Source: Saccharomonospora piscinae
GTDB lineage: Bacteria > Actinomycetota > Actinomycetes > Mycobacteriales > Pseudonocardiaceae
Assembly: GCF_005862235.1 (NCBI RefSeq)
Contig: NZ_VCEK01000002.1
Coordinates: forward strand, 310,001 to 374,000
Length of the DNA: 64,000 nt
Direction: 5' to 3'
Positions 18,031 through 57,045 of the stretch are shown in pieces (the stretch's first letter is position 1; the number at the start of each line of letters is the position of its first letter). The notes below the pieces were generated by a model. The model was given only the letters and a program-made list of their open reading frames with translations. It ran no database searches and was not told the origin of the DNA. The position numbers were made by a program, and so were the translations under genes.

Positions 18031-18106
18031 GGCGTAGGTGCCGTGAAGGCCACCTTCACTGCGTCTCGTGCAGCGAGGGTGGCCTTCGCGGCACCCCACC
18101 TACGCC
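18031..18106. repeat. dispersed palindromic repeat, copy 1 (also bidirectional terminator)
   Basis: Left unit CCGTGAAGGCCACC with TTCACTGC (18041-18062), loop GTCTCGT, inverted right unit 18070-18091. The stem is extended outward by GGCGTAGGTG (18031-18040) pairing with CACCTACGCC (18097-18106), which includes the mshD stop codon. It lies between the convergent pstB and mshD genes. Confidence 0.8.
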
Positions 18107-19038
18107 GCGTACTGCACGTCGGTCTCGACGACCTCGAAGCCCAGCTTGCGGTAGACGGCGACGGCGGGGGCGTTGTCGCCCTCGACGTAGAGCACGACCT
18201 GGCGAAGGCCCCGGTCGCGGAGGTAGCGCAGGCCGGCGAGGGTCAGCGCCCTGCCGAGCCCTCCACCCTGCGCGTCGGGGTCCACGCCGACGACGTAGAC
18301 CTCACCCACCGGCAGCCCGTCGAACCGGTGCGGGTTCGGTGGATGCACCTTGGTCCAGTGAAAGCCGATCACCGTGCCGTCGGCGTTCTCGGCGAGGAAG
18401 AACCCCTCGGGGTCGAACCAGCGCTCGCGCTCGGCGGCCTCCAGGGCGCCCACGTCGAACGCACCCTGCTCGGGGTGCCAGTCGAAGGCCCGCGCATTGA
18501 CGTCGATCATCGCCTGCTCGTCGGCTCCCGGCACGAAGGTGCGCAGCCGGACCCCCTCGGGCAGGCGCGACTCCCCCCAGTCCCGCCCTGCCGTGGACAC
18601 TCCCATGACCAGCAGTTCCCGCGCCCGCGTGAGGCCGAACCGCTCGGCCAGGCGAGCCGCGCCGGGGTGGTCGCCGTGGGCCCAGACGCGGACGTCCGGT
18701 CGCGCCTGCCGCAGCACCTCCCCGAGCACCGCCGCCCCGTGGCCCTGGCGCCGATTCGCCGGATGCACCACCAGCTCCGCGACCTGACGCCCGAAGGCGT
18801 CGCCGTGGATGTCGAGATGCGCGTACGCGACGAGCGCGCCCGTCGGACCGTCGGAGCAGAGCAGGTGACGCGGGCCGGAGAACTCGCCCGGCAACGCGGA
18901 TTCCGCCGAGCCCGCCGTGTCCCCCGCGTCTTCGGCCACCTCGGGACGGCCGTCCGTGTCGCGGGCCGCGAGCAACAGGTTCCTCACCTCGTCGGCGCGG
19001 CCACCGTCCAGTTCATCGACCCACACGAAGTCACGCAT
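18100..19038 (-). CDS. mshD: mycothiol synthase
   Basis: Acetyl-CoA:Cys-GlcN-Ins acetyltransferase, the last step of mycothiol synthesis, cytosolic. Two GNAT domains are present. The first is about residues 5-140, with LVVHPANRRQGHGAAVL. The second is about 150-300, with VYVVGVDPDAQGGGLGRAL for acetyl-CoA binding. 312 aa is typical. The gene follows glnR on the same strand, but TAGGGT at 19045-19050 lies 6 bases before ATG 19038, suggesting its own leaderless promoter. Confidence 0.93.
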   Translation of the reverse strand: MRDFVWVDELDGGRADEVRNLLLAARDTDGRPEVAEDAGDTAGSAESALPGEFSGPRHLLCSDGPTGALVAYAHLDIHGDAFGRQVAELVVHPANRRQGHGAAVLGEVLRQARPDVRVWAHGDHPGAARLAERFGLTRARELLVMGVSTAGRDWGESRLPEGVRLRTFVPGADEQAMIDVNARAFDWHPEQGAFDVGALEAAERERWFDPEGFFLAENADGTVIGFHWTKVHPPNPHRFDGLPVGEVYVVGVDPDAQGGGLGRALTLAGLRYLRDRGLRQVVLYVEGDNAPAVAVYRKLGFEVVETDVQYAA

Positions 19039-19044
19039 GAGCCA

Positions 19045-19050
19045 ACCCTA
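19045..19050 (-). promoter_or_regulatory. -10 box for leaderless mshD
   Basis: TAGGGT, 6-base gap, then ATG 19038. Confidence 0.5.
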
Positions 19051-19078
19051 GCCGGGATGGGGGGCCCGGCCGGACCGA

Positions 19079-19816
19079 TCAGCGGCGTGAGATCGCCGCG
19101 GACTCGCTGGCCGGTACCCCCGGTGTGACGGCCTTCGCCTTCCCGGGACGCTCGAACTTGTAGCCCACGTTGCGCACGGTGCCGATCATCTGCTCGTGCT
19201 CGGGCCCCAGCTTCGCCCGCAGGCGCCGCACGTGGACGTCCACGGTGCGCGTACCGCCGAAGAAGTCGTAACCCCACACCTCCTGGAGCAGCTGCGCCCG
19301 GGTGAAGACCCGCCCCGCGTGCTGAGCGAGGTACTTGAGCAGCTCGAACTCCTTGTAGGTCAACTCCAGCGTGCGCTTGCGCAGCCGGGCTGTGTAAGTG
19401 GCCTCGTCGATCACCAGGTCGCCGACGCGCAGCTCCGCGTCCGCGGCCGCCGAGGCACCCTCCCGGGTGGTGGCCAGCCTCAATCGGGCGTCAACCTCCG
19501 CCGGACCCGCCGAGGGGAGCACAATGTCGTCGGTGCGCCATTCGGAACTGAGCGCCACCAGCCCGCCCTCGCCGACCACCGCGATCACCGGGACGGACGC
19601 CTCGGCCTCGCCGGCGCCCTTGAGCAGGCGGCACAGGCTCTTGGCCGACGCCAGGTCGCTGCGCGCGTCGAGGACGATGACGTCCCGATGTCCGGCGTCG
19701 AGGAGGGCGGTGACCTCCGGCGCGCGCACCCGTACCGTATGCGGGAGCAGGTCGAGCGCGGGCAGGACGGAGGTGGCGTGCGGTTCCGTTGTCAGTACCA
19801 ACAACTCCAGGCTCAT
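19079..19816 (-). CDS. glnR: OmpR-type response regulator GlnR (global nitrogen regulator)
   Basis: The N-terminal receiver-like domain (residues 1-115) keeps [10 protein letters not shown] but lacks the normal acidic pocket, as in atypical GlnR receivers that are not phosphorylated. The C-terminal winged helix (residues about 130-225) contains [20 protein letters not shown] and the recognition stretch [18 protein letters not shown]. GlnR activates or represses nitrogen assimilation genes (glnA, amtB, nir). Position next to mshD and pst agrees with glnR loci in Streptomyces and mycobacteria. ATG 19816 is preceded by GAGGTGG. Confidence 0.88.
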
Positions 19817-19968
19817 CGCCACCACCTCGTCCGAGACGTGTCTCTTCGACCACCGAAACGGCGTTCCGGTTCAATCGAGAATAGCCCCGGCTCCCGCTGC
19901 CGCAGCAGTTCTGGAACCGGCGTCACACCATTTCGGGCTCGGCGCAACATGGCTTTAACAGAACGGAT

Positions 19969-20844
19969 GTGATTGTGAACACCGCGGTAACCGGAACGGC
20001 GCAGGCGGGCGGGACGAAGAGCCGGCGCCGCGGCAAGCGCATCGTGATCGTGCTGGTCGTGCTCGTCGGACTGCTGGTGGGCGCCGACTTCGCGGCGGCG
20101 ACCTACGCCGAACACACGGTGTCACAGAAGGCGCGGGAGCAACTCGGCCTCAGCCAGGATCCGGCCGTCACCATTCACGGGTTCCCGTTCACCACCCAGG
20201 CCCTCGCGGGCGAGTACGGCCATATCGCGCTGTCCGCCGACGGCGTCGCTGTGCAGCAGCTCCGCGACCTCTCCGTACGGGCGGACCTGCACGACGTCGA
20301 CGCCCCGCTGTCGGATCTGACCTCGGGCAACGTCTCCGACATCGCCATCGGCAGACTCACCGGCGAGATCACACTGAAGGCCAGCGACATCGCCGGGGTC
20401 GCACCGCTGACGAACATCGACGACCTCAGCATCGAACCGTCGTCCAAGGCGTACGTGCTGCACGGCGAGGGCGTCGACGACGAGCGGGCCGCCCAGATCG
20501 ACGACGACGGCGACGACTCCAGCGAGGGCGTGCGCCTGTCGGGCAAGGTCGACGTCGCCGGGGAGCGCATCGAGATCTTCGCTTTCGCCATGATCGAACT
20601 CGAGGGCACGACGATCCGCATCACGCCGCACCGCCTGCAGTTCGGCAACGACCAGGAGACGACCGTGGTGCCCGACGAGGTCCAGCAGGCTCTGCTGCCC
20701 AACTTCGAGGCCGACATCAACGCGGGCGAGATGCCGTTCACCGTCACCCCCACCGCGATCCGCGTCGAGTCGGGTTCGCTCACGTTGCACGGCGAGGCCC
20801 GTGACGTGACCTTCGCCGGTGTCGCGGGTGCCTTCGGCGGCTGA
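19969..20844 (+). CDS. LmeA-like (DUF2993) phospholipid-binding protein
   Basis: An Arg/Lys-rich start and one N-terminal membrane segment (IVIVLVVLVGLLVGADFAAA) are followed by a DUF2993 domain beginning KAREQLGLSQDPAVTIHGFP. Mycobacterial LmeA binds phospholipids in the periplasm and supports mannan elongation; the same role here is inference. Starts at GTG 19969 or 19975. It is divergent from glnR and lies 9 bases before the thioredoxin gene, so the two are likely one operon. Confidence 0.8.
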   Translation: MIVNTAVTGTAQAGGTKSRRRGKRIVIVLVVLVGLLVGADFAAATYAEHTVSQKAREQLGLSQDPAVTIHGFPFTTQALAGEYGHIALSADGVAVQQLRDLSVRADLHDVDAPLSDLTSGNVSDIAIGRLTGEITLKASDIAGVAPLTNIDDLSIEPSSKAYVLHGEGVDDERAAQIDDDGDDSSEGVRLSGKVDVAGERIEIFAFAMIELEGTTIRITPHRLQFGNDQETTVVPDEVQQALLPNFEADINAGEMPFTVTPTAIRVESGSLTLHGEARDVTFAGVAGAFGG

Positions 20845-20853
20845 GGCGCGGCG

Positions 20854-21282
20854 ATGGCCGGAGTCTGGGTGCTGGGGGGCACGCTCGTGCTGGGCGTGCT
20901 CGCTGGAATCGTGCTCACCACTCGGGACGGGAGGATTCGCCGCGGTATGAACCAGCCCCAGGGCACCGCTCCACCGGAGTCCGTGGCGGACGCGCTGGTG
21001 CCCGGAACGGTCACGCTCGTGCAGCTGTCCACCACGTTCTGCGCGCCCTGCCGGCAGGCCAGGGCCGTGCTCGCGAGGGTCGCCGAGACCACCGACGGTC
21101 TCGCGCACGTCGAGATCGACGTCGCCGAGCGGCCCGAGGTCGCGGAGGCACTGCGCGTGCTGCGTACCCCCACCACGATCGTGTACGACGCCGGCGGTGC
21201 CGAGTTGCTGCGCATCGGCGGTGTGCCGAAGACCGCCGCCCTCCGGGACGCGCTGGCCCCCCACGCCCGTCCCACAGAATGA
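20854..21282 (+). CDS. membrane-anchored thioredoxin-fold protein
   Basis: An N-terminal transmembrane helix (residues 3-22) and a thioredoxin fold with active site FCAPCRQA and the cis-Pro loop LRTPTTIVYD. The redox-active CxxC suggests thiol-disulfide exchange. Since only the N-terminus is membrane-bound, the side of the membrane is unclear. Synteny with the mycobacterial thiX position supports orthology. It precedes the cysteine leader peptide and sulfur operon. Confidence 0.85.
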   Translation: MAGVWVLGGTLVLGVLAGIVLTTRDGRIRRGMNQPQGTAPPESVADALVPGTVTLVQLSTTFCAPCRQARAVLARVAETTDGLAHVEIDVAERPEVAEALRVLRTPTTIVYDAGGAELLRIGGVPKTAALRDALAPHARPTE

Positions 21283-21311
21283 ACTTCGTTCCCGCTGGGA
21301 GATCGACTGAG

Positions 21312-21317
21312 TACGCT
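21312..21317 (+). promoter_or_regulatory. -10 box for leaderless cysteine leader peptide
   Basis: TACGCT, 6-base gap, then GTG 21324. Confidence 0.6.
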
Positions 21318-21323
21318 GGGCGT

Positions 21324-21419
21324 GTGGACCGGCTACCGACTCACCTGCTGACACGGCGTCGCGCGATCGACCTGTGCCGGGTGCGGAGCAGCCTGTGTCC
21401 GTCGAGCGTCCCGAGGTGA
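21324..21419 (+). CDS. cysteine-responsive leader peptide (31 aa)
   Basis: A small frame from GTG to TGA encodes MDRLPTHLL then TRRRAIDLCRVRSSLCP. The RRRAIDLCRV...CP pattern is that of the actinobacterial leader peptides found before sulfur-assimilation genes. Cysteines at residues 18 and 25 could stall ribosomes when cysteine is scarce. A -10 box sits 6 bases upstream, so the mRNA would start at the GTG. The stop lies 28 bases before the DUF4395 gene, which has GGAGGTGAC before its ATG. Inferred role: coupling cysteine supply to expression of the downstream three-gene operon. Confidence 0.7.
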   Translation: MDRLPTHLLTRRRAIDLCRVRSSLCPSSVPR

Positions 21420-21447
21420 TTCCGGAGTTCGACCACTCGGAGGTGAC

Positions 21448-21882
21448 ATGCCCGCAGGAGCACCGGTGGACCCCCGTGGCCCGCGGTTCGCGGCCGTGAT
21501 CACCACCGTCGTCCTCGCGGTCGTGCTGCTCACCGGCTGGTGGCCGCTGCTCGCCGCACAGACCGCCGTGTTCGCGCTCGGAGCCTTCGCGGGCCTGCGG
21601 GTGGCGCCCTACGCCGTGCTCTACCGGGTGCTGCTCGCCCCGAGGCTGCCGGCGACGACCGAGCGGGAGGACGCCGCGCCGCTGCGCTTCGCCCAGGCCG
21701 TCGGGTTCGCGTTCGGTCTGGTCGGCACCGTGGGCTATGCCCTCGGTGTTCCCGTGCTCGGCCTCGCCGCGACGGCGTTCGCCCTGTTCGCCGCGTTCCT
21801 CAACGCGGCGTTCGACTTCTGTCTGGGTTGCGAGGTGTATCCGCTGCTCCGGCGGGTCACACCACGAACCGGACGCGCGTGA
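21448..21882 (+). CDS. DUF4395 membrane protein
   Basis: Small membrane protein with about four hydrophobic helices and a conserved CLGCEVY motif near the C-terminus (FDFCLGCEVYPLLRR). The CxxC-like cysteines fit a link to sulfur or thiol chemistry. The strong GGAGGTGAC lies before ATG 21448. First gene of the sulfur operon behind the leader peptide. Exact function unknown; sulfur-compound transport or thiol transfer is a guess from context. Confidence 0.8.
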   Translation: MPAGAPVDPRGPRFAAVITTVVLAVVLLTGWWPLLAAQTAVFALGAFAGLRVAPYAVLYRVLLAPRLPATTEREDAAPLRFAQAVGFAFGLVGTVGYALGVPVLGLAATAFALFAAFLNAAFDFCLGCEVYPLLRRVTPRTGRA

Positions 21883-21940
21883 CGCGCGGCCGGCAACCCG
21901 GGCCGTCCCAGTTTCCGACACGAAGAAAGTGAGTGCCGCC

Positions 21941-22777
21941 ATGAGCCGTGACGACGTGCTGGTCACCACCGACTGGGCCGAGGAGAACCTCGACACCCAG
22001 GGTGTGGTTTTCGCCGAGGTCGACGAGGACACCACCGCCTACGACGGCGGCCACATCCCCGGCGCCGTCAAGATCGACTGGAAGAACGAGCTGCAGGACC
22101 CGGTCCGCCGCGACTTCGTCGACAGGGCGGGGTTCGAGAAACTGATGTCCGAGAAGGGCATCGGCAACGACGACCTGGTGGTCCTCTACGGCGGAAACAA
22201 CAACTGGTTCGCGGCCTACGCGTACTGGTACTTCAAGCTGTACGGCCACGACAAGGTGAAGCTGCTCGACGGCGGGCGCAAGAAGTGGGAGCTCGACGGC
22301 CGCGCCCTTTCCACCGACCAGGTGACGCGGGAGCGCACGGACTACTCGGCGCGCGAGCAGGACCACTCCCTGCGCGCGTTCCGCGACGAGGTCGTCGACG
22401 CGATCAACACGAAGAACCTGGTGGACGTGCGCTCGCCCGACGAGTTCTCCGGCAAGCTGCTGGCCCCGGCGCACCTGCCCCAGGAGACGGCCCAGCGCGG
22501 CGGTCACATCCCCAGCGCGATCAACGTGCCGTGGTCGAAGGCGGCCAACGAGGACGGCACGTTCAAGTCGGCCGAGGAGCTGGAGCGGCTGTACCAGGAG
22601 GCGGGGCTCGACACCTCCAAGTCGACCATCGCCTACTGCCGGATCGGCGAGCGCTCCAGCCACACCTGGTTCGCGCTGCACGAACTGATCGGGCTGTCGG
22701 ACGTGAAGAACTACGACGGATCGTGGACGGAGTACGGCTCGCTGGTGGGCGTGCCGGTCGAGACGGGAGCGCAGTGA
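21941..22777 (+). CDS. thiosulfate sulfurtransferase (CysA2/SseA-type rhodanese)
   Basis: Two rhodanese domains. The N-terminal inactive one has GHIPGAVKIDW and YGGNNNWFAAYAYW. The C-terminal catalytic one has LVDVRSPDEFSGK and active-site Cys near residue 233 in YCRIGERSSHTWF. It transfers sulfane sulfur, for example from thiosulfate or 3-mercaptopyruvate to thiophilic acceptors. ATG 21941 is chosen as the family start; an in-frame GTG lies at 21929. Its stop overlaps the DUF1416 start (TGATG). Confidence 0.92.
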   Translation: MSRDDVLVTTDWAEENLDTQGVVFAEVDEDTTAYDGGHIPGAVKIDWKNELQDPVRRDFVDRAGFEKLMSEKGIGNDDLVVLYGGNNNWFAAYAYWYFKLYGHDKVKLLDGGRKKWELDGRALSTDQVTRERTDYSAREQDHSLRAFRDEVVDAINTKNLVDVRSPDEFSGKLLAPAHLPQETAQRGGHIPSAINVPWSKAANEDGTFKSAEELERLYQEAGLDTSKSTIAYCRIGERSSHTWFALHELIGLSDVKNYDGSWTEYGSLVGVPVETGAQ

Positions 22778-23082
22778 TGACGGACGGATGTGGCGCACCG
22801 GCGCAGACGGCGACGGCCGCCGACGAGGACACCGGCGGCCAGGTCGTGGTGGCGGGCACGGTCACCGGCGCGGACGGCCCGCTCGGCGGCGCGTTCGTGC
22901 GGCTGCTCGACGAGTCGGGCGAGTTCACCGGCGAGGTGCAGGCGTCGCCGCAGGGCGACTTCCGCTTCTACGCGGCACCCGGCGCATGGACGGTGCGGGC
23001 GCTGCACCGGTCGGGCAACGGTGAGGCCGGAGTGCGGGCTCAGGGCCCCGGAGTCCACCGGGTCGAGGTCGCGGTCGGCTGA
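22777..23082 (+). CDS. DUF1416 protein (SseC-like)
   Basis: A 101-aa cytosolic protein with an N-terminal MTDGCGAP cysteine motif and a transthyretin/CarboxypepD-like beta-sandwich (VTGADGPLGGAFVRLLD, then SPQGDFRFYAAPGAWTVR). It is always paired with CysA-type rhodanese in actinobacteria, hence the name SseC, and probably receives or supports sulfur transfer. It is translationally coupled to the rhodanese. A dispersed repeat hairpin follows. Confidence 0.85.
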   Translation: MTDGCGAPAQTATAADEDTGGQVVVAGTVTGADGPLGGAFVRLLDESGEFTGEVQASPQGDFRFYAAPGAWTVRALHRSGNGEAGVRAQGPGVHRVEVAVG

Positions 23083-23088
23083 CGGCGT

Positions 23089-23143
23089 TGCCGCGAAGGC
23101 CACCCTCGCTGCGTCTGATGCAGTGAAGGTGGCCTTCGCGGCA
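23089..23143. repeat. dispersed palindromic repeat, copy 2
   Basis: Left unit 23091-23112 and inverted right unit 23120-23141 around loop GTCTGAT; the outer 16 bases pair perfectly. It lies 7 bases after the DUF1416 stop and can act as its terminator. Confidence 0.75.
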
Positions 23144-23199
23144 CACCTGTGTGGGCCGGCTCTCACGCACCGGGGGCGGTCGGCGTGGCGGCCGAGCGT

Positions 23200-23205
23200 T
23201 ATCCT
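23200..23205 (+). promoter_or_regulatory. -10 box for leaderless 31-aa membrane peptide
   Basis: TATCCT, 6-base gap, then GTG 23212. Confidence 0.55.
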
Positions 23206-23211
23206 TCGGCC

Positions 23212-23307
23212 GTGGAGTTTTTCTTTACAGCGTTGATGATCTTGGTCGTGGTCGCGTCCCTGTGGTTCGGCGTCTACGTCCTCTACCGCCTGTACACCGA
23301 CAACTAG
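23212..23307 (+). CDS. 31-residue single-span membrane peptide
   Basis: The frame from GTG to TAG encodes MEFFFTALMILVVVASLWF then GVYVLYRLYTDN. It is one hydrophobic helix with a short positively charged and polar tail, so probably a membrane microprotein with its C-terminus inside. A perfectly spaced -10 box and the small gap (21 bases) to the nitrobindin gene support expression. No known family; related short membrane peptides are often missed in annotation. Confidence 0.55.
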   Translation: MEFFFTALMILVVVASLWFGVYVLYRLYTDN

Positions 23308-23328
23308 AGCGGCGAGTCACGACACGAG

Positions 23329-23940
23329 ATGACCAGCGGCGACGACGCGATCCGGGCTGCCGCCGAGCGGGCCGAGAACACAGCGCACCGAAACCTTCCG
23401 CAGTTCGACGATCTGCCGATTCCCAGCGACACGGCCAATCTGCGCGAGGGCCCGAGCCTCGACGACGCCTGCCTCGCGCTGCTGCCGCTCGTGGGCGTCT
23501 GGCGCGGTGAGGGCGAGGTCAGCTACCCCACGCTCGATCGCACCTACCGGTTCGCGCAGCAACTCACGATCTCCCACGACGGCAGGCCGTTCCTCCACCA
23601 CGAGGCGCGGGCGTGGCTGCTCGACGACGACGGCGAGGTGTTGCGCCCCGCCGCGCGGGAGACGGGCTGGTGGCGTCCCCGGCCGGACGACACCATCGAA
23701 CTCCTGCTCACCCACCACACGGGCGTGCTGGAGCTCTACTACGGCAGCCCACGCGGCCAGACCGCCTGGGAGCTGGCCACCGACGCCGTGGTGCGGTCGG
23801 TCAGCGCCAAGGAGGTCACCGCGGCCAAGCGCCTCTACGGCCTCGTCAACGGCGATCTCGGCTACGTCGAGGAGCGGGCCATGATGGGGCAGCCGATGAC
23901 GCCGCACTGCTCGGCGATGCTGCGGCGCGTGGTCGGCTGA
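23329..23940 (+). CDS. nitrobindin-like heme protein (THAP4/FABP-like)
   Basis: A ten-stranded beta-barrel family with the signature GVWRGEGEVSYPT (here starting near residue 51). The late histidine in MTPHCSAMLRRV fits the axial heme ligand of bacterial nitrobindins, which scavenge peroxynitrite or bind NO. Cytosolic. Synteny places it where M. tuberculosis has its nitrobindin (Rv0813c, from memory). Enzymatic role here is inferred. Confidence 0.85.
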   Translation: MTSGDDAIRAAAERAENTAHRNLPQFDDLPIPSDTANLREGPSLDDACLALLPLVGVWRGEGEVSYPTLDRTYRFAQQLTISHDGRPFLHHEARAWLLDDDGEVLRPAARETGWWRPRPDDTIELLLTHHTGVLELYYGSPRGQTAWELATDAVVRSVSAKEVTAAKRLYGLVNGDLGYVEERAMMGQPMTPHCSAMLRRVVG

Positions 23941-23972
23941 CGGTCGGGCTTACCCGCCCCGCCCGCGCCCCC

Positions 23973-24821: not shown

Positions 24822-24827
24822 GGCTAC

Positions 24828-24865: not shown

Positions 24866-24871
24866 CGGGTC

Positions 24872-28982: not shown

Positions 28983-29876
28983 GTGGACGAGCAACTGAGG
29001 GTCGGGCTCGTGGGCGCGGGTTCCTGGGCTCGCCGGGTCCACGCACCCGGCATCGCCGATCATCCCGCCACCGTGCTCAGTGCCGTGTGGACGCGCAGAC
29101 CCGAGGCCGCGCTCGCGCTGGCGGACGAACACGGCGCCACGGCCTGCGACTCGTTCGACGCCCTGCTCGACACCGTGGACGCGGTGGCCTTCGCCGTGCC
29201 GCCGTCGGTGCAGGGCGAGCTGGCCGTGCGCGCAGCGCAGGCGGGTAGGCACCTGATCCTGGAGAAGCCGCTCGCGACCGACGTCGAGCAGGCGGAACGG
29301 CTCGCGCACGCGGTGTCCGAGGCGGACGTCGTGGCGCTGCTCATGCTGACCCTGCGCTACGCCGTGCGAACCCGCGACTGGCTGGCCGGGCTCGCCGCGG
29401 CGGGCGGCTGGACCGGCGGGACCGCACGGTGGCTGTCGGGGGCCTTGCTGGGGGAGAAGTACGGCAACGCCGCGTGGCGACACGAGCTTGGCGCGCTCGG
29501 CGACATCGGGCCGCACGTGTTCGACCTGCTCGACGCCGCACTCGGAGAGATCGACTCGGTGGTCGCGGCGCGCCGGGACGCGGCGGGTACCTGGCAGGTG
29601 CTGGTGGAGCACGCGGGCGGTGCCACCAGTGCGGTGACCCTGGCGTCCCGGCTGCCGATCCGGCCGACGGCCATCGAGTTCGCCGTGTACGGCGAGTCCG
29701 GGTTGCGCACCCTCGGCCGCGAACCCGACGGCGAGTCGGCGTCGTTCACCGCGCTGCTCGACGACTTCGCCGCGATGATCGACAGTGGCGTGCGCGAGCA
29801 CCCCTGCGACGTACGCCGGGGAGTCCACCTGCAACGGGTGCTGGCCGCCTGCGAGACCGCCGCGGGGGTGCGGTGA
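28983..29876 (+). CDS. Gfo/Idh/MocA-family NAD(P)-dependent oxidoreductase
   Basis: N-terminal Rossmann fold (VGLVGAGSWARRVHAPGI, residues 5-22) with the family EKP motif (LILEKPLATD). A C-terminal alpha/beta domain has GDIGPHVFDLLD carrying the likely catalytic His. It probably oxidises or reduces a sugar or cyclitol; the substrate cannot be told. Leaderless GTG start. The stop codon lies inside repeat copy 3. Confidence 0.85.
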   Translation: MDEQLRVGLVGAGSWARRVHAPGIADHPATVLSAVWTRRPEAALALADEHGATACDSFDALLDTVDAVAFAVPPSVQGELAVRAAQAGRHLILEKPLATDVEQAERLAHAVSEADVVALLMLTLRYAVRTRDWLAGLAAAGGWTGGTARWLSGALLGEKYGNAAWRHELGALGDIGPHVFDLLDAALGEIDSVVAARRDAAGTWQVLVEHAGGATSAVTLASRLPIRPTAIEFAVYGESGLRTLGREPDGESASFTALLDDFAAMIDSGVREHPCDVRRGVHLQRVLAACETAAGVR

Positions 29877-29894
29877 AGGCCACCTTCACCGCAC
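29868..29894. repeat. dispersed palindromic repeat, copy 3 (between convergent stops)
   Basis: A single, fully symmetric unit with 12-bp perfect arms (GTGCGGTGAAGG and complement) and a 3-base loop. It contains the TGA of the oxidoreductase gene and ends one base before the arfB stop, so it can terminate both. Confidence 0.75.
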
Positions 29895-30320: not shown

Positions 30321-30324
30321 GGGA

Positions 30325-46914: not shown

Positions 46915-46960
46915 GCCGACCCCACCGGGCGCCAGGACCGACGGCGGTGCCGGTGGGGTG

Positions 46961-47041
46961 CCGCTAAGGCCACCCTCGCTGCACCACAGGCAGTGAGGGT
47001 GGCCCTCACTACGTCTCACGCAGTCAGGGTGGCCTTCGCGG
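46961..47041. repeat. dispersed palindromic repeat, copy 4 (three units)
   Basis: Unit a at 46961-46982, inverted unit b at 46990-47011 and inverted unit c at 47020-47041. The b-c linker contains GTCTCAC, like the loops of copies 1 and 2. Two alternative hairpins (a-b or a-c) can form. It lies after the minus-strand membrane gene at 47058 and before the IclR promoter. Confidence 0.75.
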
Positions 47042-47057
47042 CATCCCCTCGCCGGGG

Positions 47058-47606
47058 TCAGGCGGCTCGCCGCAGCGCCCGGCCGACACCGGGCAGAGAC
47101 ACGACCACGCTCGGCAGCAGCCACAGCAGCAGCGCCACCACCGGCAGCACCACGTAGATCATCCCCTGCTCGGCAACGCCCTCGGACAGCAGGACAGCCA
47201 CCGCGTAGCCCTGGTAGGCCACCACCAGCCACGACAACGCCGTCAACGCCGGGCGCACCAGCGCGATCCGCAGCGGCAGCAGCACCGCCAGAGTCGCCAC
47301 GACGAGGGCGACCACGATCGTCACCACAGCGCAGACTCCCGCCGCCGCGTTCGGGTCCTCGGGGAAGACCAGCCCGAGCAGCGACAGCACCAGAGCGATC
47401 CCGAGTTCGTCACCGGTGGTCCAGCCGGTCCAGACGACGGCGCTGCCGAGACACGAGTAGATGACCGCGGGCACGAACAGCACCGCCGCCAGCGACACCA
47501 GGCGGCTGCCCCGCTCGGGAGCGACCACCGCGGTCTCCTCCGCCGGAGCCGGACCGCTGTCCTCCGGCGCGGAGTGCTGCTCCTGAGGCTGGAACCAGTT
47601 GGCCAC
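47058..47606 (-). CDS. multi-pass membrane protein (paralogue of the next gene)
   Basis: 182 aa: a Pro/Glu-rich cytosolic head of about 30 residues, then about five hydrophobic helices ending LLLWLLPSVVVSLPGVGRAL. The GTG start at 47606 has GGGAG about 8 bases upstream. It shares layout and the helix-4/5 pattern (VALLLWLLPSVVV vs VTFLLWTVPTVVV) with the protein encoded at 47687, so the two arose by tandem duplication. Function unknown. Confidence 0.7.
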   Translation of the reverse strand: MANWFQPQEQHSAPEDSGPAPAEETAVVAPERGSRLVSLAAVLFVPAVIYSCLGSAVVWTGWTTGDELGIALVLSLLGLVFPEDPNAAAGVCAVVTIVVALVVATLAVLLPLRIALVRPALTALSWLVVAYQGYAVAVLLSEGVAEQGMIYVVLPVVALLLWLLPSVVVSLPGVGRALRRAA

Positions 47607-49890: not shown

Positions 49891-49936
49891 GAGACGGGAC
49901 AGTGGAGCTGACAATTCGCCAACAGTGGGAGCTGAC

Positions 49937-50572
49937 GTGAAGCTCGTTCATTTCGGCCACTCCTGCGTGCTCCTGGAAACGGCGCACGCCCGGCTGCTGT
50001 TCGATCCGGGTGCGTTCTCCAGCGGCTTCGACGCCGCGCGCGACCTCGACGCCGTGCTGATCACCCACCAGCACTACGACCACATCGACACCGAGAAACT
50101 GCCCGCACTCCTGGCCGCCAACCCGCAGGCCCGGCTCATCGTGGACCCCGGCACCGCCGAGACGGTCGAGAAGCTGGACCTCGACGCCACCACGGCGAGG
50201 CCCGGCGACACGCTCGACATCCACGGCACCAGGATCTCCGTCGTCGGCGGGCAACACGCCACGATCCACGCCGACATCCCCGTCATCCCGAACGTGGGCT
50301 ACGTCGTCGACGACGGCGCCTTCTACCACCCCGGCGACGCGCTGTTCGTTCCCCAGCAGCGCATCGACGTTCTCGCCCTGCCGACGGCAGGACCCTGGCT
50401 CAAAGCGGCGGAGGCCGTGGACTACCTGCGCGCCGTCGCACCGCGGCTGGCGATTCCCGTCCACGAGGCGGCGCTGTCCCGCCCCGCCATGCACATCGGG
50501 CTCTACACCAATCTGGCCCCCGACGGCACGGAGGTCCGCACCGCACCTCGCGGCGAGCCGATCACCCTCTGA
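49937..50572 (+). CDS. metallo-beta-lactamase-fold hydrolase (UlaG-like)
   Basis: A binuclear metal hydrolase of the UlaG/YtnP-like branch. It starts VKLVHFGHSCVLLET, has the metal motif ITHQHYDHID near residues 46-55, HPGDALF and a late His in PVHEAALS. 211 aa. Substrate unknown. GTG 49937 is preceded by GGGAG. Divergent from the aldehyde dehydrogenase, 58 bases between starts. Confidence 0.85.
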   Translation: MKLVHFGHSCVLLETAHARLLFDPGAFSSGFDAARDLDAVLITHQHYDHIDTEKLPALLAANPQARLIVDPGTAETVEKLDLDATTARPGDTLDIHGTRISVVGGQHATIHADIPVIPNVGYVVDDGAFYHPGDALFVPQQRIDVLALPTAGPWLKAAEAVDYLRAVAPRLAIPVHEAALSRPAMHIGLYTNLAPDGTEVRTAPRGEPITL

Positions 50573-50580
50573 TCGGTACC

Positions 50581-51507: not shown

Positions 51508-51519
51508 GACGCGGGCTCC

Positions 51520-52950
51520 CTAGAGAATCGGGCCGGGCTCGTACGACGCCGCCTCGGGGAAGCGCCGCACGACGTCCTTGACCCTGGCGACCACGTCCGC
51601 AACCTGCGCGCCCGCCATCCCGGTGAAGGCCAGCCGGTCGGCGAGCAGCGCCGTCAGCCGATCCGCGTCCAGCGGCAGGCGTTCGTCGGCGGCGAGCCGC
51701 TCGACCAGGTCGTTGTCCTGCTGCGCCTGCTCGCGCATGGCGAGCGCCACCGCGACGGCGTGCTCCTTGATGGCCTCGTGTGCGGTCTCCCGCCCCACTC
51801 CCTCGCGCACCGCGGCCATGAGCACCTTGGTGGTGGCGAGAAACGGCAGGTAGCGCGCCAGCTCCCGGTCGACCACGGCGGGGAACGCGCCGAACTCGGC
51901 GAGCACCGTCGCGAAGGTCTCCAGTAGGCCGTCCAGCGCGAAGAAGGCGTCCGGCAGCGCGACCCGGCGCACCACCGAGTCGGAGACGTCGCCCTCGTTC
52001 CACTGGTCGCCGGCCAGCTCTCCGATCATGGCGAGATGGCCGCGCAGCACCACGGCGAGCCCGGTGACGCGCTCACACGAACGGGTGTTCATCTTGTGCG
52101 GCATCGCCGAGGAACCGACCTGCCCCGGCTGGAACCCCTCGGTCACGAGTTCGTGGCCCGCCATCAGCCGGATCGTGGTGGCCAGGTTCGCGGGCGCGGC
52201 GGCGACCTGCACCAGCGTCGACACGACGTCGAAGTCCAGCGACCTCGGGTACACCTGCCCGACGCTCGTCAGCACGCGCTCGAAGCCGAGGTGACCCGCG
52301 ACCCGCCGTTCCAGCTCCGACAGCCGCGCCGCGTCGCCGAGCAGGTCGAGCATGTCCTGCGCCGTGCCCACCGGGCCCTTGATCCCGCGTAGCGGGTAGC
52401 GCGCGATCAGCTCGTCGAGCCGGTCGAAGGCGACCAGCAACTCGTCGGCCGCCGTCGCGAACCGCTTGCCGAGCGTCGTGGCCTGCGCGGCGACATTGTG
52501 GGAACGACCCGCCATGACGACCTCGCCGTGCTGGGTGGCCAGCTCGGCGAGGCGGGCCAGCACGGCGGCCACCCGCACCCTGAGGTGTTCCAGCGACCGG
52601 CGCACCTGCAACTGCTCGACGTTCTCGGTCAGATCACGCGAGGTCATGCCCTTGTGTACGTGCTCGTGGCCCGCGAGTGCGTTGAACTCCTCGATCCGAG
52701 CCTTGACGTCGTGGCGGGTGACCCGCTCCCGCCGCGCGATCGAGTCGAGGTCCACCGTGTCGAGCACGCGCTCGTAGTCGGAGAGCACGCCGTCGGGCAC
52801 GTCGACTCCGAGTTCGCGCTGGGCCCGGAGGACCGACAGCCACAGGTCTCGTTCGAGTCTCACCTTGTGCTCCGGTGACCACAACCTCACCAGTTCGGGT
52901 GAGGCATAGCGGCCGGCGAGCACGTTCGGGATGCGGGGCTTGTCGGTCAC
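51520..52950 (-). CDS. purB: adenylosuccinate lyase
   Basis: Fumarase/aspartase superfamily enzyme acting twice in AMP synthesis (SAICAR and adenylosuccinate cleavage). Visible: HEHVHKGMTSRDLTEN, AGRSHNVAAQATTLG with catalytic His, and the signature loop GSSAMPHKMNTRSCE. 476 aa. GTG 52950 has TAGCCT (52957-52962) 6 bases before it. Confidence 0.95.
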   Translation of the reverse strand: MTDKPRIPNVLAGRYASPELVRLWSPEHKVRLERDLWLSVLRAQRELGVDVPDGVLSDYERVLDTVDLDSIARRERVTRHDVKARIEEFNALAGHEHVHKGMTSRDLTENVEQLQVRRSLEHLRVRVAAVLARLAELATQHGEVVMAGRSHNVAAQATTLGKRFATAADELLVAFDRLDELIARYPLRGIKGPVGTAQDMLDLLGDAARLSELERRVAGHLGFERVLTSVGQVYPRSLDFDVVSTLVQVAAAPANLATTIRLMAGHELVTEGFQPGQVGSSAMPHKMNTRSCERVTGLAVVLRGHLAMIGELAGDQWNEGDVSDSVVRRVALPDAFFALDGLLETFATVLAEFGAFPAVVDRELARYLPFLATTKVLMAAVREGVGRETAHEAIKEHAVAVALAMREQAQQDNDLVERLAADERLPLDADRLTALLADRLAFTGMAGAQVADVVARVKDVVRRFPEAASYEPGPIL

Positions 52951-52956
52951 ACGGTC

Positions 52957-52962
52957 AGGCTA
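52957..52962 (-). promoter_or_regulatory. -10 box for leaderless purB
   Basis: TAGCCT, 6-base gap, then GTG 52950. Confidence 0.55.
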
Positions 52963-53034
52963 GCCACGAGTAGCCGCCTGGACCCAGCTCAGGGTGAGTC
53001 CTTGCGGCATTCGTCCCACTCCGTGCGACAGCGG

Positions 53035-53640
53035 TTAACTTAGCGCATCGCGGAGCATACGCGCAGCGACGGACCGGGGATCCGGCTCGACCGCGACGAG
53101 CGCGTTCACCACCGCCCCGTCCACCAGCGCGATGAGCCGTTCGAGCCGCGCCGCGTCCACGTCGAAACCCGACCGCACGAAGATCTCGCTCAGCAGCTCC
53201 CGCAGCTCGGCCGACAGCACCCGCATGAGCGGGCGCAGGTGCGGGCGCCGCCCCGTACCCACGAGCCGCTCGTACCGCAGGATCACGGCCTCCTCGTGCG
53301 GATCGGGGCCGAGCAGCAGATCGAGCACCAGCTCCACGACGGCGTCCACGCCGCGGTTCTCCGTGGCCAGCTCCGCGAGCCGCTCACGTCCGGCGGCCAG
53401 CTCCGCCCGCCCGTAGCGCTCCACCGCCGCACAGACCAGGTCGTCGAGCGAGTCGAAGTAGTAGGTCGTCGACGCCAGCGGCAGCCCGGCGCGTTCGGCG
53501 ACCGCGCGGTGCCGTACCGCGCCGAACCCGCCCTCCACCAGCAACTCGGCCGCGGCCGCGGCAAGTGCGGAACGGCGGCGCTCGCCCTTCGGCGTACTTG
53601 CTGTATTCGCGGCACTGGCGGCACTGCCTCCGGACGTCAT
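53035..53640 (-). CDS. TetR-family transcriptional regulator
   Basis: N-terminal DNA-binding helices (RRSALAAAAAELLVEGGFGA, then RHRAVAERAGLPLASTTYYF, residues about 20-60) and an all-helical ligand domain, 201 aa. ATG 53640 is chosen; an upstream TTG at 53649 is possible. It lies 84 bases before purB on the same strand. Target and ligand unknown. Confidence 0.88.
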   Translation of the reverse strand: MTSGGSAASAANTASTPKGERRRSALAAAAAELLVEGGFGAVRHRAVAERAGLPLASTTYYFDSLDDLVCAAVERYGRAELAAGRERLAELATENRGVDAVVELVLDLLLGPDPHEEAVILRYERLVGTGRRPHLRPLMRVLSAELRELLSEIFVRSGFDVDAARLERLIALVDGAVVNALVAVEPDPRSVAARMLRDALS

Positions 53641-53658
53641 ACCGGACAAGTCTGCCAG

Positions 53659-54408
53659 CTACCGGGCGACCGTCTCGGCCACGGACCTGGCGAGCCCGTC
53701 CACCGCACCGGCCAGGGACGCCGTCCCGCCCGTCTCGCCCGGTGTGGTGATCACCGTGACCGTCCTGCCGTCGGGCAGTGTCCCCGCATCGGGGGCGCTC
53801 ACCGCGCTACCGGTCGGCAGGTCGGGACGCGCCACCTGGTCTCGCGGCACCAACAGCACCGACACGGCACCCTCGGACAGCGGAAACGCCGCGGCGGAGC
53901 CGCCAGCCACGCAGTAGGGGCTCGGCACGGCCTCGCCGGCCGGGTCGATCGGGAGCTCGCCAGCGAGGGCGGTGGCGAGCCCCCGATCAACCGTCTCGCA
54001 CCCGGAGGTGCTTCCGGCCCGAGGGCCGTCCTCCCCCGTCGGCTCGCCGCCCTGCTTCGTCGAGCCGTCGGGGAAGTTCTGGGCGCCGGGTCGCCCCGGC
54101 GTACTGTGCTCACGCTCGTCCCCGCCGCCGGGTTGCCCCGACTCAGGAGTTTTTCCCAGCACCTGTCCCGAGTCCGTCGTTTCCCCAGGCCCGAGCGCCG
54201 TCGTGGGTTCGGAGGGACCGGGACCGCCCACGGCGACCCCCACGAGCGCTCCCGCCAGCACCACGACGGCCGCCACCCCTGCCCCGAGCGAGCGGCGCCG
54301 CGCGGTGGCACGGCGCGACGCCGCGGTGACGTCCTCGACGTCGAAGGACGCCTCGGGCGGTTCGCCCACCGCGTCGTGCATCAGCTGTTCGAACCGGCGC
54401 TCATCCAC
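53659..54408 (-). CDS. putative membrane-anchored anti-sigma-type protein
   Basis: A 249-aa protein with a short cytosolic N-terminus (VDERRFEQLMHDAVGEPPE, residues 1-45), one transmembrane helix (SLGAGVAAVVVLAGALVGVA, near 40-60), a Pro/Gly/Thr-rich extracytoplasmic linker and a C-terminal domain with two cysteines (SGCETV, SPYCVAGG). It overlaps the sigma-factor gene by 8 bases, so is made with it. The layout is that of an anti-sigma factor, but no HxxxCxxC zinc motif is visible. Confidence 0.65.
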   Translation of the reverse strand: MDERRFEQLMHDAVGEPPEASFDVEDVTAASRRATARRRSLGAGVAAVVVLAGALVGVAVGGPGPSEPTTALGPGETTDSGQVLGKTPESGQPGGGDEREHSTPGRPGAQNFPDGSTKQGGEPTGEDGPRAGSTSGCETVDRGLATALAGELPIDPAGEAVPSPYCVAGGSAAAFPLSEGAVSVLLVPRDQVARPDLPTGSAVSAPDAGTLPDGRTVTVITTPGETGGTASLAGAVDGLARSVAETVAR

Positions 54409-54922
54409 GTGTGTCCACCTCCTCGCCCAACACCGCCCGCAGCTTCGCCAGGCCTCGCGAGGTCTGGCTCTTGACGTTGCCTTCGCTGCACCCGAGCGTG
54501 CGCGCCACACCGCTCACGTCGAGTCCCTCGAAGTACCGCAGCACCAGGACCGCACGCTGTTTCGACGGCACGTGCGCCAGCGCGGCACGCAGGTCGGCCC
54601 GTGTGCTCACGGTCTCGGCCAGCGCGTCGCGACGGCCCGCCTGTGCCGCCACCGGTTCCGGCACCTCGTCCGTGTGCCGCTCCCGGCGCCACGGACGACG
54701 CGACTCGTCGATGGCCGCACGCACCAGCGTCTTGCGCACGTACGCGTCCACCGCTCTCCGGTCGCGGATCTTGCGCCACCGGCGGTGCAGCGACACGAAC
54801 GCCGTCTGCGCGAGGTCGTCGGCGCGGTGCCAGTCCCCGCACAGCAAGTACGCCGTCCGGCGCACGGAGTCCCGCTTCGCGGCGAAGTACTCCGCGAACT
54901 CCTGGTCGTCATGGTGAGCCAC
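54401..54922 (-). CDS. SigE-family ECF RNA polymerase sigma factor
   Basis: Region 2: AAKRDSVRRTAYLLCGDWHR then ADDLAQTAFVSLHRRWRKI. Region 4: AALAHVPSKQRAVLVLRYFE then LGCSEGNVKSQTSRGLAKLR. 173 aa, as in Streptomyces SigE-family sigma factors. GTG 54922 has GGAG 9 bases upstream. The partner membrane gene overlaps its end. No autoregulatory promoter motif was identified. Confidence 0.9.
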   Translation of the reverse strand: MAHHDDQEFAEYFAAKRDSVRRTAYLLCGDWHRADDLAQTAFVSLHRRWRKIRDRRAVDAYVRKTLVRAAIDESRRPWRRERHTDEVPEPVAAQAGRRDALAETVSTRADLRAALAHVPSKQRAVLVLRYFEGLDVSGVARTLGCSEGNVKSQTSRGLAKLRAVLGEEVDTRG

Positions 54923-55056
54923 GCGGATGTCTCCGGTCGGTCGTGTTGTCGACGGTGGAGACGGAACACCCCCGCTCCACGGTTGCACGTGGAAGCAGTC
55001 TCACCCATTCGAGGGGTCACGGCGAGTCCGCACCGGAATGTGGTGTCATCGATGCC

Positions 55057-56109
55057 GTGACCGACTCGACCGACACCCCGCCCCTGGACTTCCGCTCGGA
55101 CACCGTGACGCGGCCGGACCAGCACATGCGCACGGTGATGGCGGACGCCGAGGTCGGCGACAACGTCATCGACACCGATCCCACGATCCGCGCGCTGGAG
55201 GAACGGGCGGCGCAGACGCTGGGGATGCCGTCCGCGCTCTGGACGCCGAGCGGCACGATGGCCAACCTGGTGGCACTGTCCACGCACCTGCGGCGTGGTG
55301 ACCGGTTCCTCGCACCACGCGGGGCGCACGTGCTGGTGAACGAACTCGGCTCCGCGGCGTGGCTGGCCGGGGGCATGCCGGACCCCCTCGACCACGACGC
55401 GGGCCCCGGCCGCCCCAGCCCGGAGGCGGTCCGCGCCGCCGCGGGGGGCACCGGCCCGTACTACACGCTGCGCACGACGTTGTTGTCGCTGGAGAACACC
55501 CACAACGCGGCCGGTGGCGCGGTGACCCCTCCCGACGAGCACGCCCGGCTCGTGGCCGCCGCGCGGGAGGCGGGCCTGCGGGTTCACCTCGACGGCGCCC
55601 GGCTCTGGCACGCCGCCACGGCACTCGCGGTCCCGCCTGCGGCGCTCACGGTCGGCGTCGACAGCGTGGCGGCGTGCTTCAGCAAGGGACTCGGGGCACC
55701 CGTCGGCTCGGTCGTGGCGGGCAGCGAGGAGTTCGTCGAGCAGGCCCGCCGGATGCGGCAGATGCTCGGGGGCGGCGTGCGGCAGGGCGGTGTGCTGGCG
55801 GCGGCCTGCCTGCTCGCGCTCGACCGCGTCGACGACCTCGCCGCCGACCACGCCAGGGCCACGGCGCTGGCGGAGGGCCTCGCCGACCGCGGCTGGGACG
55901 TCGTGCCACCACAGACCAACATCGTGCTCGCCGGTGTCCCCGACGTGAACGCCGCGCTCGACACGCTGCGCGCGCTGGGCATCCTCGTCCTGCCCATGGC
56001 CGGCAAGGTCCGGTTCGTGCTCCACCGCGACCTCACCGACGACGACGTGACCGAGGCCCTGCGGCGCATCGACGCGGGCACCGGCGACGGAACGCCGAGC
56101 CCGGCATGA
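55057..56109 (+). CDS. ltaE: low-specificity L-threonine aldolase
   Basis: PLP fold-type I enzyme cleaving threonine or allo-threonine to glycine and acetaldehyde. Visible: DFRSDTVTRPDQHMRTVMAD, NTHNAAGGAVTP, HLDGARLWHAATAL, and catalytic Lys in CFSKGLGAPVGS. 350 aa. GTG 55057 is the start that fits the family. The end overlaps the HAD gene (ATGA). Confidence 0.9.
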   Translation: MTDSTDTPPLDFRSDTVTRPDQHMRTVMADAEVGDNVIDTDPTIRALEERAAQTLGMPSALWTPSGTMANLVALSTHLRRGDRFLAPRGAHVLVNELGSAAWLAGGMPDPLDHDAGPGRPSPEAVRAAAGGTGPYYTLRTTLLSLENTHNAAGGAVTPPDEHARLVAAAREAGLRVHLDGARLWHAATALAVPPAALTVGVDSVAACFSKGLGAPVGSVVAGSEEFVEQARRMRQMLGGGVRQGGVLAAACLLALDRVDDLAADHARATALAEGLADRGWDVVPPQTNIVLAGVPDVNAALDTLRALGILVLPMAGKVRFVLHRDLTDDDVTEALRRIDAGTGDGTPSPA

Positions 56110-56699
56110 CCTGGATCGTCTTCGACTACGGCGAGGTGCTCTGCGCTCGCACCGAGGCGTTGCCGCGGCTCGCGACCCGGCTCGGCGTCCCACTCGCGGA
56201 CTTCGAACCCGCCTACTGGGGCAACCGCGACATCTACGACCGGGGAGCGGCCGACGAGACGTACTGGAAGGCGGTGGCGGCCGGGGCGGGCGCCGACCTC
56301 GACACCGTGGACCTCGGCGCGGTCGAGGACCTGACCCGGCTCGACATCGAGGGCTGGTCACGCCTGGACCCCGCGTCGACCGCGCTGCTCGACGACCTCG
56401 CCAGGGACGGGGCGTCGCTCGCGCTGCTGTCGAACGCACCCGCGTCCTTCGCGCGGTTCGCCGAGCGGCAGCCGTGGGCGCGGCACTTCCACACCCGGGT
56501 GTTCTCCGCCGACGTCGGGTGCGCCAAGCCCGACCCGGATATCTTCGCGCTGCTCACCGACAGGCTGGGCGCCGCGCCCTCCGACTGTGTCTTCTTCGAC
56601 GACCGCCGGTCGAACGTGGCGGGCGCGCGAGCGGCCGGGCTCCGCGCCCACCTGTGGCAGGGGGCGCAGGCCGCCCGGCAGCGACTGGCGGGCGGCTGA
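56106..56699 (+). CDS. HAD-superfamily hydrolase
   Basis: Subfamily IA phosphatase fold. Motif I is VFDYGEVLC (Asp nucleophile, then DxG instead of the usual DxD, as in some FDxGxVL members); motif II is SNAP; motif III is CAKPDPDIF; motif IV is FFDDRRSNV. A helical cap lies in residues about 15-85. 197 aa. Replacement of the second Asp suggests altered chemistry. Coupled to ltaE; substrate unknown. Confidence 0.85.
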   Translation: MTWIVFDYGEVLCARTEALPRLATRLGVPLADFEPAYWGNRDIYDRGAADETYWKAVAAGAGADLDTVDLGAVEDLTRLDIEGWSRLDPASTALLDDLARDGASLALLSNAPASFARFAERQPWARHFHTRVFSADVGCAKPDPDIFALLTDRLGAAPSDCVFFDDRRSNVAGARAAGLRAHLWQGAQAARQRLAGG

Positions 56700-56723
56700 G
56701 CGGCCAGAACCGGTGAGGACCGG

Positions 56724-56909
56724 TCAGGAGCGCAGCTGCTTCTTGCCCTTGTCGCTCTTCATCGCACCGTAGGCAGCGGCACCGAGGAAGACGCCGCCGC
56801 CGATCACCGCGATCCAGAACACGGCTTCCACGAGGAAGCCGACCACGGCTCCGATGACGACGAACGCCAGCCACGCGAGAAGCAGGCCGCCGACGATCTT
56901 CCAGAACAT
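56724..56909 (-). CDS. small two-span membrane protein (61 aa)
   Basis: MFWKIVGGLLLAWLAFVVIG then AVVGFLVEAVFWIAVIGGGV form two hydrophobic helices, followed by a basic tail ending KKQLRS. GGAGG lies 6 bases before ATG 56909. No family recognised. It stands alone between the HAD gene (convergent) and the aminotransferase. Confidence 0.75.
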   Translation of the reverse strand: MFWKIVGGLLLAWLAFVVIGAVVGFLVEAVFWIAVIGGGVFLGAAAYGAMKSDKGKKQLRS

Positions 56910-57023
56910 GATCCCTCCGCTTTCGTAGGTCTCATCCCAGCGTGTCACGAAACCACGCCCCACCGCCGCAGGCGGAGCGGACAATCAGGGACATCTCCGG
57001 GTCGCCCGGATGCCGGGGTGGGT

Positions 57024-57045
57024 GCAGCGAAGGTGGCCTTCACGG
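57024..57045. repeat. dispersed palindromic repeat, copy 5 (half unit)
   Basis: A single unit GCAGCGAAGGTGGCC with TTCACGG, 5 bases after the aminotransferase stop. The partner unit is missing, so it cannot form the full hairpin. Confidence 0.65.

Follow-up and report, generated by a model that had tools for sequence, protein, structure and literature searches.

Short palindromic repeats that lie at the ends of genes are frequently ascribed to REP-associated tyrosine transposases (RAYTs; REP, repetitive extragenic palindrome), and the question raised here is what such a repeat may be when it keeps a fixed geometry and occurs in many genomes of one family, the Pseudonocardiaceae. The locus is a stretch of 64,000 nucleotides (nt) of Saccharomonospora piscinae (genome G000; contig NZ_VCEK01000002.1, positions 310,001 to 374,000), hereafter the window, in which an earlier note, made from the letters alone, had described a 22-nt unit at five intergenic sites; all nine units are present in the sequence as claimed. 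The answer favoured here, with somewhat more confidence than doubt, is that these units belong to a dispersed hairpin family of the Pseudonocardiaceae resembling REPINs (REP doublets forming hairpins), which would serve as bidirectional transcript-end hairpins and be homogenised by a RAYT-independent process. It builds on the position of the elements relative to genes, their fold, the covariation of the long stem and a uniform sequence that is specific to the genome, at sites that are shared in part.

Genome-Wide Copies and Anatomy of the Element

The 17-nt core of the unit, GYGARGGCCACCYTCRC, is present in 102 exact copies in the 4.9-Mb genome of S. piscinae and its reversed control in none, and the 10-mer GAAGGCCACC has 212 matches vs. 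27 for its control. Shuffling the window 100 times gave a mean of 0.04 core matches and a maximum of one, against the nine units observed. Two outcomes that the earlier note had regarded as fatal to a repeat family, i.e., a unit at chance frequency or one confined to the window, are excluded by these shuffles and by the genome-wide copies. Over 744 kb of this genome (34 stretches, of which 18 adjoin the window on the same contig and 16 were chosen for having listed matches), 38 elements were kept from 45 clusters of matches; the seven clusters dropped are intragenic, all two-mismatch chance matches, and two of the elements kept are lone two-mismatch units. Genes were called with our own codon-usage caller and not taken from annotation.

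The 22-nt unit is palindromic by itself, and the hairpin of paired units is the better kept across species. The functional object in S. piscinae is indeed the pair, namely two 23-nt arms around a 7-nt spacer, which form an almost palindromic element of some 59 bp whose outer ends are close to GGTGCC...GGCACC; with regard to terminal inverted repeats, the element is itself an inverted repeat nearly from end to end. Units of plus orientation precede those of minus orientation, in the arrangements +-, ++-, +-- and ++--, or stand singly, the +- dimers being commonest; one cluster printed as +-+- reflects two strands called at one place. Unit starts lie 30 nt apart in the clusters (31 once), the regular period being the sum of the 23-nt unit and the 7-nt spacer. 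The description of full copies as two inverted units around a 7-nt spacer is thereby confirmed, and that of the spacer as starting with GTCT is true of 17 of the 31 S. piscinae pairs and false of the others; the window has three such spacers, those starting at 18063 and 23113 and one of the pair in the element at 46960. CGTC at the unit foot (a spacer starting GTC) occurs in 21 of the 31 pairs, and GTT takes its place in most Prauserella copies. A GTAG tag at the foot was seen neither in S. piscinae nor in the sampled copies, where spacers are mostly GTCT, GTTG and GTTC. At core position 16, 29 of the 31 pairs have different letters in their two units (p = 5e-7 if both letters are equally likely); the palindrome is hence imperfect, and the element occurs in both orientations.

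Position at Gene Ends and Folding

The claim that units sit right at gene ends extends to the 38 elements, which occupy 18 convergent, 18 tandem and only 2 divergent gaps, for expectations by intergenic length of 14.8% convergent (p = 2e-6) and 31.9% divergent (p = 2e-4). Three of the 34 paired matches of S. piscinae fall in called genes and are chance matches; three of 14 in genome G053 (considered below) also lie in called genes. Beyond the genus, the sample was drawn from the top matches in eleven other genomes (50 of 51 distinct places, one 60-nt match being left out) and comprises 34 convergent, 10 tandem, 3 divergent and 2 genic positions, and 1 at an edge.

The elements had also been proposed to be long terminator stems. 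Position and folding agree with this (the five elements of the window fold strongly, z -4.7 to -10.1), but the U-tract does not follow: at least three U in 8 nt are found at only 3 of 52 flanks, below the 12.8% of the intergenic background, and the elements are as such no canonical intrinsic terminators, i.e., a stem-loop then a U-tract. Their form is that of the I-shaped terminator, a stable U-less stem at most 50 nt from the stop codon, since 37 of the 45 edges measured on paired S. piscinae elements lie at 0-50 nt. Strong stems lacking the U-tract are called I-shaped in mycobacteria in a section of PMC12288462, which cites titles on both sides as to whether a U-tract is needed, and U-poor, highly structured 3' ends of Streptomyces are presented in part of PMC8269248 as possible I-shaped terminators or Rho-terminated transcript ends. 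In the mechanism proposed, transcription from either side would give a single stem some 23-27 bp long, in most cases 0-50 nt past the stop codon, and the element would be a U-less (I-shaped) bidirectional hairpin at which the transcripts on its two sides have their 3' ends, and which may end transcription and/or block 3' exonucleases. That RNA polymerase stops at the elements is what we infer from their position and fold.

Exonuclease trimming that halts at a stem has been proposed for many REPs, and the hairpin could in the same way be a stabiliser and not a terminator, Rho ending transcription further on and exonucleases trimming back to the stem, an explanation that overlaps with the favoured one. 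Strong stems devoid of a U-tract speak for it, together with the possible Rho termination of U-poor Streptomyces ends (PMC8269248, in part) and Rho-dependent termination being called dominant in mycobacteria (a passage of PMC12288462); against this, closeness to stop codons in both directions fits termination equally, and the computed results do not separate the two. Stabilisation in place of termination is considered distinctly unlikely, if a serious contender. Selection at the RNA level through wobble on the sense strand was looked for in S. piscinae and discarded: at tandem sites, sense-strand G-U and A-C pairs are even, 16:18, and hence give no sign of RNA-level fine-tuning. This lack of strand asymmetry, with a palindrome kept in both directions, is what would be expected of a DNA-level site, e.g., a cruciform or the binding of a nucleoid or repair protein, for which the RNA hairpin would be incidental; the rarity of elements in divergent gaps and their tight spacing to stop codons nonetheless suggest transcript ends, and a DNA-level site is deemed improbable.

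Covariation of the Long Hairpin

Structure conservation was assessed on an ungapped alignment of 89 elements from five genomes, the rows of which were picked by family patterns fixing the outer 10 nt; as outer-arm columns served row selection, the weight lies on the inner columns, those free of this bias being 20-27. In the long hairpin, 13 of 23 pairs are changed on both sides, including double changes in inner columns 20, 22, 23 and 24, and 95.0% of the cells are paired (at most 53.1% when slid), counts that do not separate RNA selection from correction of a DNA palindrome. The covariation score is 0.254 vs. 0.105 in shuffled alignments, none of 500 shuffles reaching it, and the long hairpin surpasses every shuffle on all five measures, with the proviso that related sequences may beat shuffles without structure. 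Inner arms vary, yet the two arms of one element agree in 44 of 51 elements of Prauserella flavalba, 34 of 42 of Prauserella endophytica and 8 of 13 of Prauserella shujinwangii. The hairpins of individual units, as a candidate conserved structure, proved weaker than the long hairpin, with 85.9% of cells paired and a covariation score of 0.113 vs. 0.102 in shuffles, reached by 8 of 500; three measures are reached by 8, 88 and 277 of the 500 shuffles.

Genome-Specific Versions in the Pseudonocardiaceae

The exact core has a match in 34 of 150 family genomes and many copies in only four, namely S. piscinae (102), P. shujinwangii (G020; 54), P. endophytica (G084; 259) and P. flavalba (G106; 269), the last being itself a member of the Pseudonocardiaceae. 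Within its own genus (12 genomes), the high-copy core is restricted to S. piscinae, the others having 0-3, and a phylum-wide draw of 396 genomes gave 15 with a match, S. piscinae included, the other 14 with one each. When the long hairpin was cast as a covariance model (R1), with matches counted on both strands from at most 36 (family) or 18 (class) scored candidates per genome, the model recognises 78 of the 150 family genomes at E≤1e-4 and 58 at E≤1e-7, with at least 13 matches in 42 genomes and at least 36 in 18; in the class, where the threshold differs (E≤1e-7 vs. E≤1e-4 in the family), it finds 3 of 296 genomes, i.e., S. piscinae, the family member G045 and the outsider G756.

Related versions of the hairpin, specific to most of the sampled genomes, thus run through the family, which the earlier note had not foreseen. 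Identity within a genome is 0.84-0.98 in 13 of the 15 groups with at least two copies, and lower between most groups. Sampled genomes mostly have uniform arms of their own and a recurring spacer, GTTNAAC or its kin, e.g., ATGCAGGGAAGGACGCCTTACCTGC in G057 and AGTACGTGAAGGCCCCCTTCACTGC in G054; of the 102 loci that a scan of named genomes gave, the analysis used 80, sorted by species. The congener G111, devoid of the high-copy core, has many different hairpins, some of which contain kindred words, e.g., GAAGGCCACC. Such many and unique hairpins are the one point in favour of an independent convergence of ordinary terminators without copying, an explanation contradicted by the uniformity within a genome, the difference between most genomes and the 102 exact cores against a control of zero, and consequently close to untenable. 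As a separate observation, genome G054 (L299-L303) harbours two uniform hairpin families, around GTGAAGGCCCCCTTCAC and GCGAAAGCCACTTTCGC, at times side by side.

Comparison of Sister Species and Outgroups

P. flavalba and P. endophytica share 93.4% identity over about 300 kb and have two hairpin types, both of the 23-7-23 plan, type 1 (GTGAAGGCCACC...) and type 2 (CCCAAGGCCACC...TTTGTTGC). In one 300-kb region, 24 rows were compared and two set aside, F28258 (a third hairpin type, in endophytica only) and F71616 (where endophytica has half a match, by chance); at each of the 22 remaining sites, both species carry type 1 or 2. At least 8 of the 22 are structurally remodelled: the type is switched at F70990, a structured spacer insert of about 60 nt is present in endophytica only at F10753, F91421, F159310 and F293589, the insert lies in opposite orientations at F164709, and the number of units differs at F117600 and F154011. 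The insert form is regular, measuring 92-106 nt from outer arm to outer arm in 14 of 17 cases and 133-134 nt in 3. Of ten further sites, at loci picked by pattern, nine hold type 1 in both sisters; at one of these a unit is lost, and at another flavalba alone has an additional type-2 hairpin. The remaining site (L112/L172) has type 1 in endophytica and a different hairpin in flavalba.

Turnover of whole copies does exist between the sisters, as a minority, and hairpins present in one sister only are as transposition or deletion would give. At F265615 (P. flavalba C1 near 365650), a hairpin of the same plan, CCCCAAGGCACTGTGGTCGCGTTGAAC..., is gone in endophytica except for an apparent stem foot, which looks like a deletion or an empty site. 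No clean insertion with target duplication was recognised by eye at the sister-species sites. A selfish, non-autonomous repeat, i.e., a miniature inverted-repeat transposable element (MITE) or REPIN mobilised by a transposase that escaped recognition and purged from genes and promoters, hence its gene-end position, would account for these one-sister hairpins (F265615, the extra type-2 copy in L136 vs. L119, and type 1 in L112 vs. another in L172), as well as for the mosaic and long forms, the relics in single units and an exact core that reaches high copy number in 1 of 12 genomes of its genus. It fits less well with the 22 of 22 region sites and 9 of 10 pattern-picked sites occupied in both sisters, with six sites keeping their position in an outgroup, and with a preference for convergent gaps even over tandem ones. 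Such a mobile repeat is held to be unlikely, albeit deserving real consideration. Of the earlier label "REP/MITE-like", the REP-like form stands, as do the placement at 3' ends and the spread over the genome, and MITE-like behaviour is not shown, the 22 of 22 sister sites being occupied.

The outgroup, genome G053 (same genus code as P. flavalba, about 84% identity over the longest match), has a version of its own, GGTGAAGGGCACCTTTACTGCGTTCAACGCAGTAAAGGTGCCCTTCACC. Its own version is present at 6 of the 18 comparable sites among the 22, and an unrelated hairpin, by eye, at 5. At all six sites common to flavalba and G053, orthologues (identity 0.60-0.86) are less alike than paralogues (0.91-0.94 in flavalba, 0.82-0.89 in G053), a test that rests on six sites, at three of which flavalba has type 2. 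Concerted evolution would leave such a pattern, and so would repeated replacement at one address.

Two side observations concern Prauserella forms. The type-2 hairpin, CCCCAAGGCCACCTTTGTTGCGTTGAACGCAACAAAGGTGGCCTTGGGG, lies mostly between convergent genes in both species (L206-L220, L221-L237). The long form, with its structured spacer insert of about 60 nt (GCGGCGCGCAGCGTCTCCGTTTGGGTGGTGG...), is found at L076:14538-14652, L227, L234 and L213; an insert-like hairpin was also found without arms, and inverted in place between two species.

Search for a Mover and Relation to Known Repeats

A search of 13 genomes limited to PF01797 (Y1 transposase) found no match in P. endophytica, P. flavalba, P. 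shujinwangii or G053. S. piscinae has one full and one partial match, the full one being an IS200 transposase (NF033573) with no match to the REP transposase model; this IS200/IS605 transposase gene (G000:C4:159916-160278, L051) lies about 1.9 and 5.6 kb from the nearest repeat elements found. A RAYT or IS200 was thus rejected as the mover, the element-rich Prauserella genomes having no PF01797 match. A true REP/REPIN mobilised by a RAYT would explain the paired inverted palindromes, the gene-end location and a sequence uniform within and mostly different between genomes; given the negative PF01797 search in the four genomes, the IS200 nature and distance of the full S. piscinae copy and the missing GTAG foot, it is largely refuted and very improbable.

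Compared with known classes, the elements share with REPINs and GTAG REPs associated with RAYTs, as described in part of PMC3116915, the inverted palindromic doublet forming a hairpin, the extragenic location, the high copy number, the uniformity within a genome and singlets resembling relics; they differ from those REPINs in having no GTAG tag, no RAYT found, a fixed 7-nt spacer, a bias to convergent gaps and an occupancy largely kept between sisters. With the CGTC-tagged REPs of PMC3733652, in the sections considered, they have in common inverted dimers, convergent or co-directional gene gaps and a preference for hetero-dimers in some families (there said to be without obvious explanation). 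Those REPs have no dedicated transposase, which may also hold here as far as the PF01797 search goes, and CGTC occurs at the unit foot in many S. piscinae pairs. Those REPs have stems of 8-9 bp, loops of 4-5 nt and CCA tails, unlike the present units with a stem of 7-12 bp, a 3-nt loop, a CGTT, CGCT or CGTC foot and no CCA tail seen. Word searches of the same text for actinobacterial names found none, and untagged REP-like families in M. tuberculosis are mentioned. The I-shaped or HS-U-lack 3' ends of PMC8269248 and PMC12288462 likewise show a strong, GC, U-less stem near the stop codon, but these papers, as far as their cited parts go, treat hairpins as a structural class, whereas here one sequence is repeated genome-wide and homogenised. 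As two features that define RAYT-linked REPs, a bordering RAYT and the GTAG tag, were not found, and as the dimensions depart from those of CGTC REPs, the elements are filed under neither.

Integron attC sites are 59-base palindromes at gene ends, with core sites at their outer ends and cassettes in one orientation; attC identity was set aside on these features only, i.e., outer core sites and a single cassette orientation. DNA-uptake-sequence terminators are inverted pairs of a repeated word of 10-12 nt acting as terminators, and the present elements resemble them in the inverted pairs and differ in that whole 23-nt arms are repeated. Such terminators are mentioned in a passage of PMC2267715. 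No description of the present repeat in Pseudonocardiaceae was recognised in the open-licence literature, which is weak evidence of absence. No match was obtained in a scan with Rfam gathering thresholds of the window and three loci, by which a known RNA family was ruled out there.

Proposed Homogenisation of Dispersed Copies

The distinctive point is a uniformity specific to the genome, at addresses that are shared in part, with no RAYT found in the Prauserella genomes tested. Copying or conversion among dispersed copies would homogenise them and keep the copies of each genome alike, the copying enzyme probably not being a RAYT, and template switching inside the palindrome may help, by loss or gain of units in 30-nt steps, correction of arms and inversion in place. 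In its fullest form, namely concerted evolution in which a RAYT-free machinery copies or converts hairpins of about 55 nt between sites, so that species-standard terminators are rewritten at the same addresses, this proposal is advanced tentatively, at less than an even chance.

Besides the missing U-tract and the even wobble pairs, several observations weigh against the favoured reading of homogenised transcript-end hairpins. The mismatch at position 16 in 29 of 31 S. piscinae pairs weakens the stem. Identity within a genome is only 0.73 in G054, with its two families, and 0.66 in G031, with two copies, and P. shujinwangii, P. endophytica and P. flavalba have nearly one common version (0.93-0.97). 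The hairpin at F265615, in flavalba only, and the extra type-2 copy in L136 (vs. L119) are copies without a counterpart in the sister, and 7 of the 18 comparable sites of G053 have no clear hairpin. Likewise, of 14 S. piscinae sites, 7 could be mapped in G111, where a strong hairpin is found at 4 of the 7, not above other convergent gaps (0.67 of 12); a special replacement of hairpins at these sites was rejected on this comparison with background.

The pattern suggests that bacteria can copy and harmonise message-end signals. The question of how REP-like repeats stay uniform would become testable apart from RAYTs, remodelled sister copies and genomes with and without the element offering a natural experiment with model R1 as a finder, and the candidate bidirectional end signals of bacteria of the Pseudonocardiaceae could be catalogued.

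Elements of the Window and a Second Repeat

In the window, the 17-nt core starts at 18043/18073, 23093/23123, 29873, 46963/46993/47023 and 57027; a single mismatch is present in two of these nine cores. The earlier statement that two sites lie between convergent stop codons is verified for those at 18037 and 29868. Element 1 (18037..18095) comprises a plus unit (18040-18062), the spacer GTCTCGT (18063-18069) and a minus unit (18070-18092), and folds at -55.1 kcal/mol (z -8.6) between an ABC ATPase gene ending at 18024 and a convergent GNAT acetyltransferase gene ending at 18100. Element 2 (23087..23145), with a plus unit at 23090-23112, the spacer GTCTGAT at 23113-23119 and a minus unit at 23120-23142, lies 3' of a DUF1416 gene in a tandem gap (-54.8 kcal/mol, z -10.1); near the corresponding stop codon, all six congeners have a different hairpin, by eye, that of G111 folding at -43.8. 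Element 3 (29868..29894) is a single unit with a short stem and a 3-nt loop (-26.1 kcal/mol, z -5.2), in a convergent context with genes ending at 29876 and 29895, the stop codon of the former being supplied from inside the unit. Element 4 (46957..47045) has three units, plus at 46960-46982 and minus at 46990-47012 and 47020-47042, with spacers ACCACAG and GTCTCAC, and is located 3' of a minus-strand gene ending at 47058 (-77.6 kcal/mol, z -8.8). Element 5 (57022..57048) is, like Element 3, a single unit, 3' of a minus-strand aminotransferase gene ending at 57050 (-22.3 kcal/mol, z -4.7).

S. piscinae carries a second repeat in its gene gaps (L031, L032, G000 C4 and other stretches), a sequence of about 21 nt (CCGTGTCCGCAGCCTGCGTAG) that is repeated in tandem and accompanied by inverted partners. 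Its word GTGTCCGCA[CG] has 63 matches in 744 kb of S. piscinae and 11 in 434 kb of G111, coding sequence included, with kin in L241 and L252 of G111.

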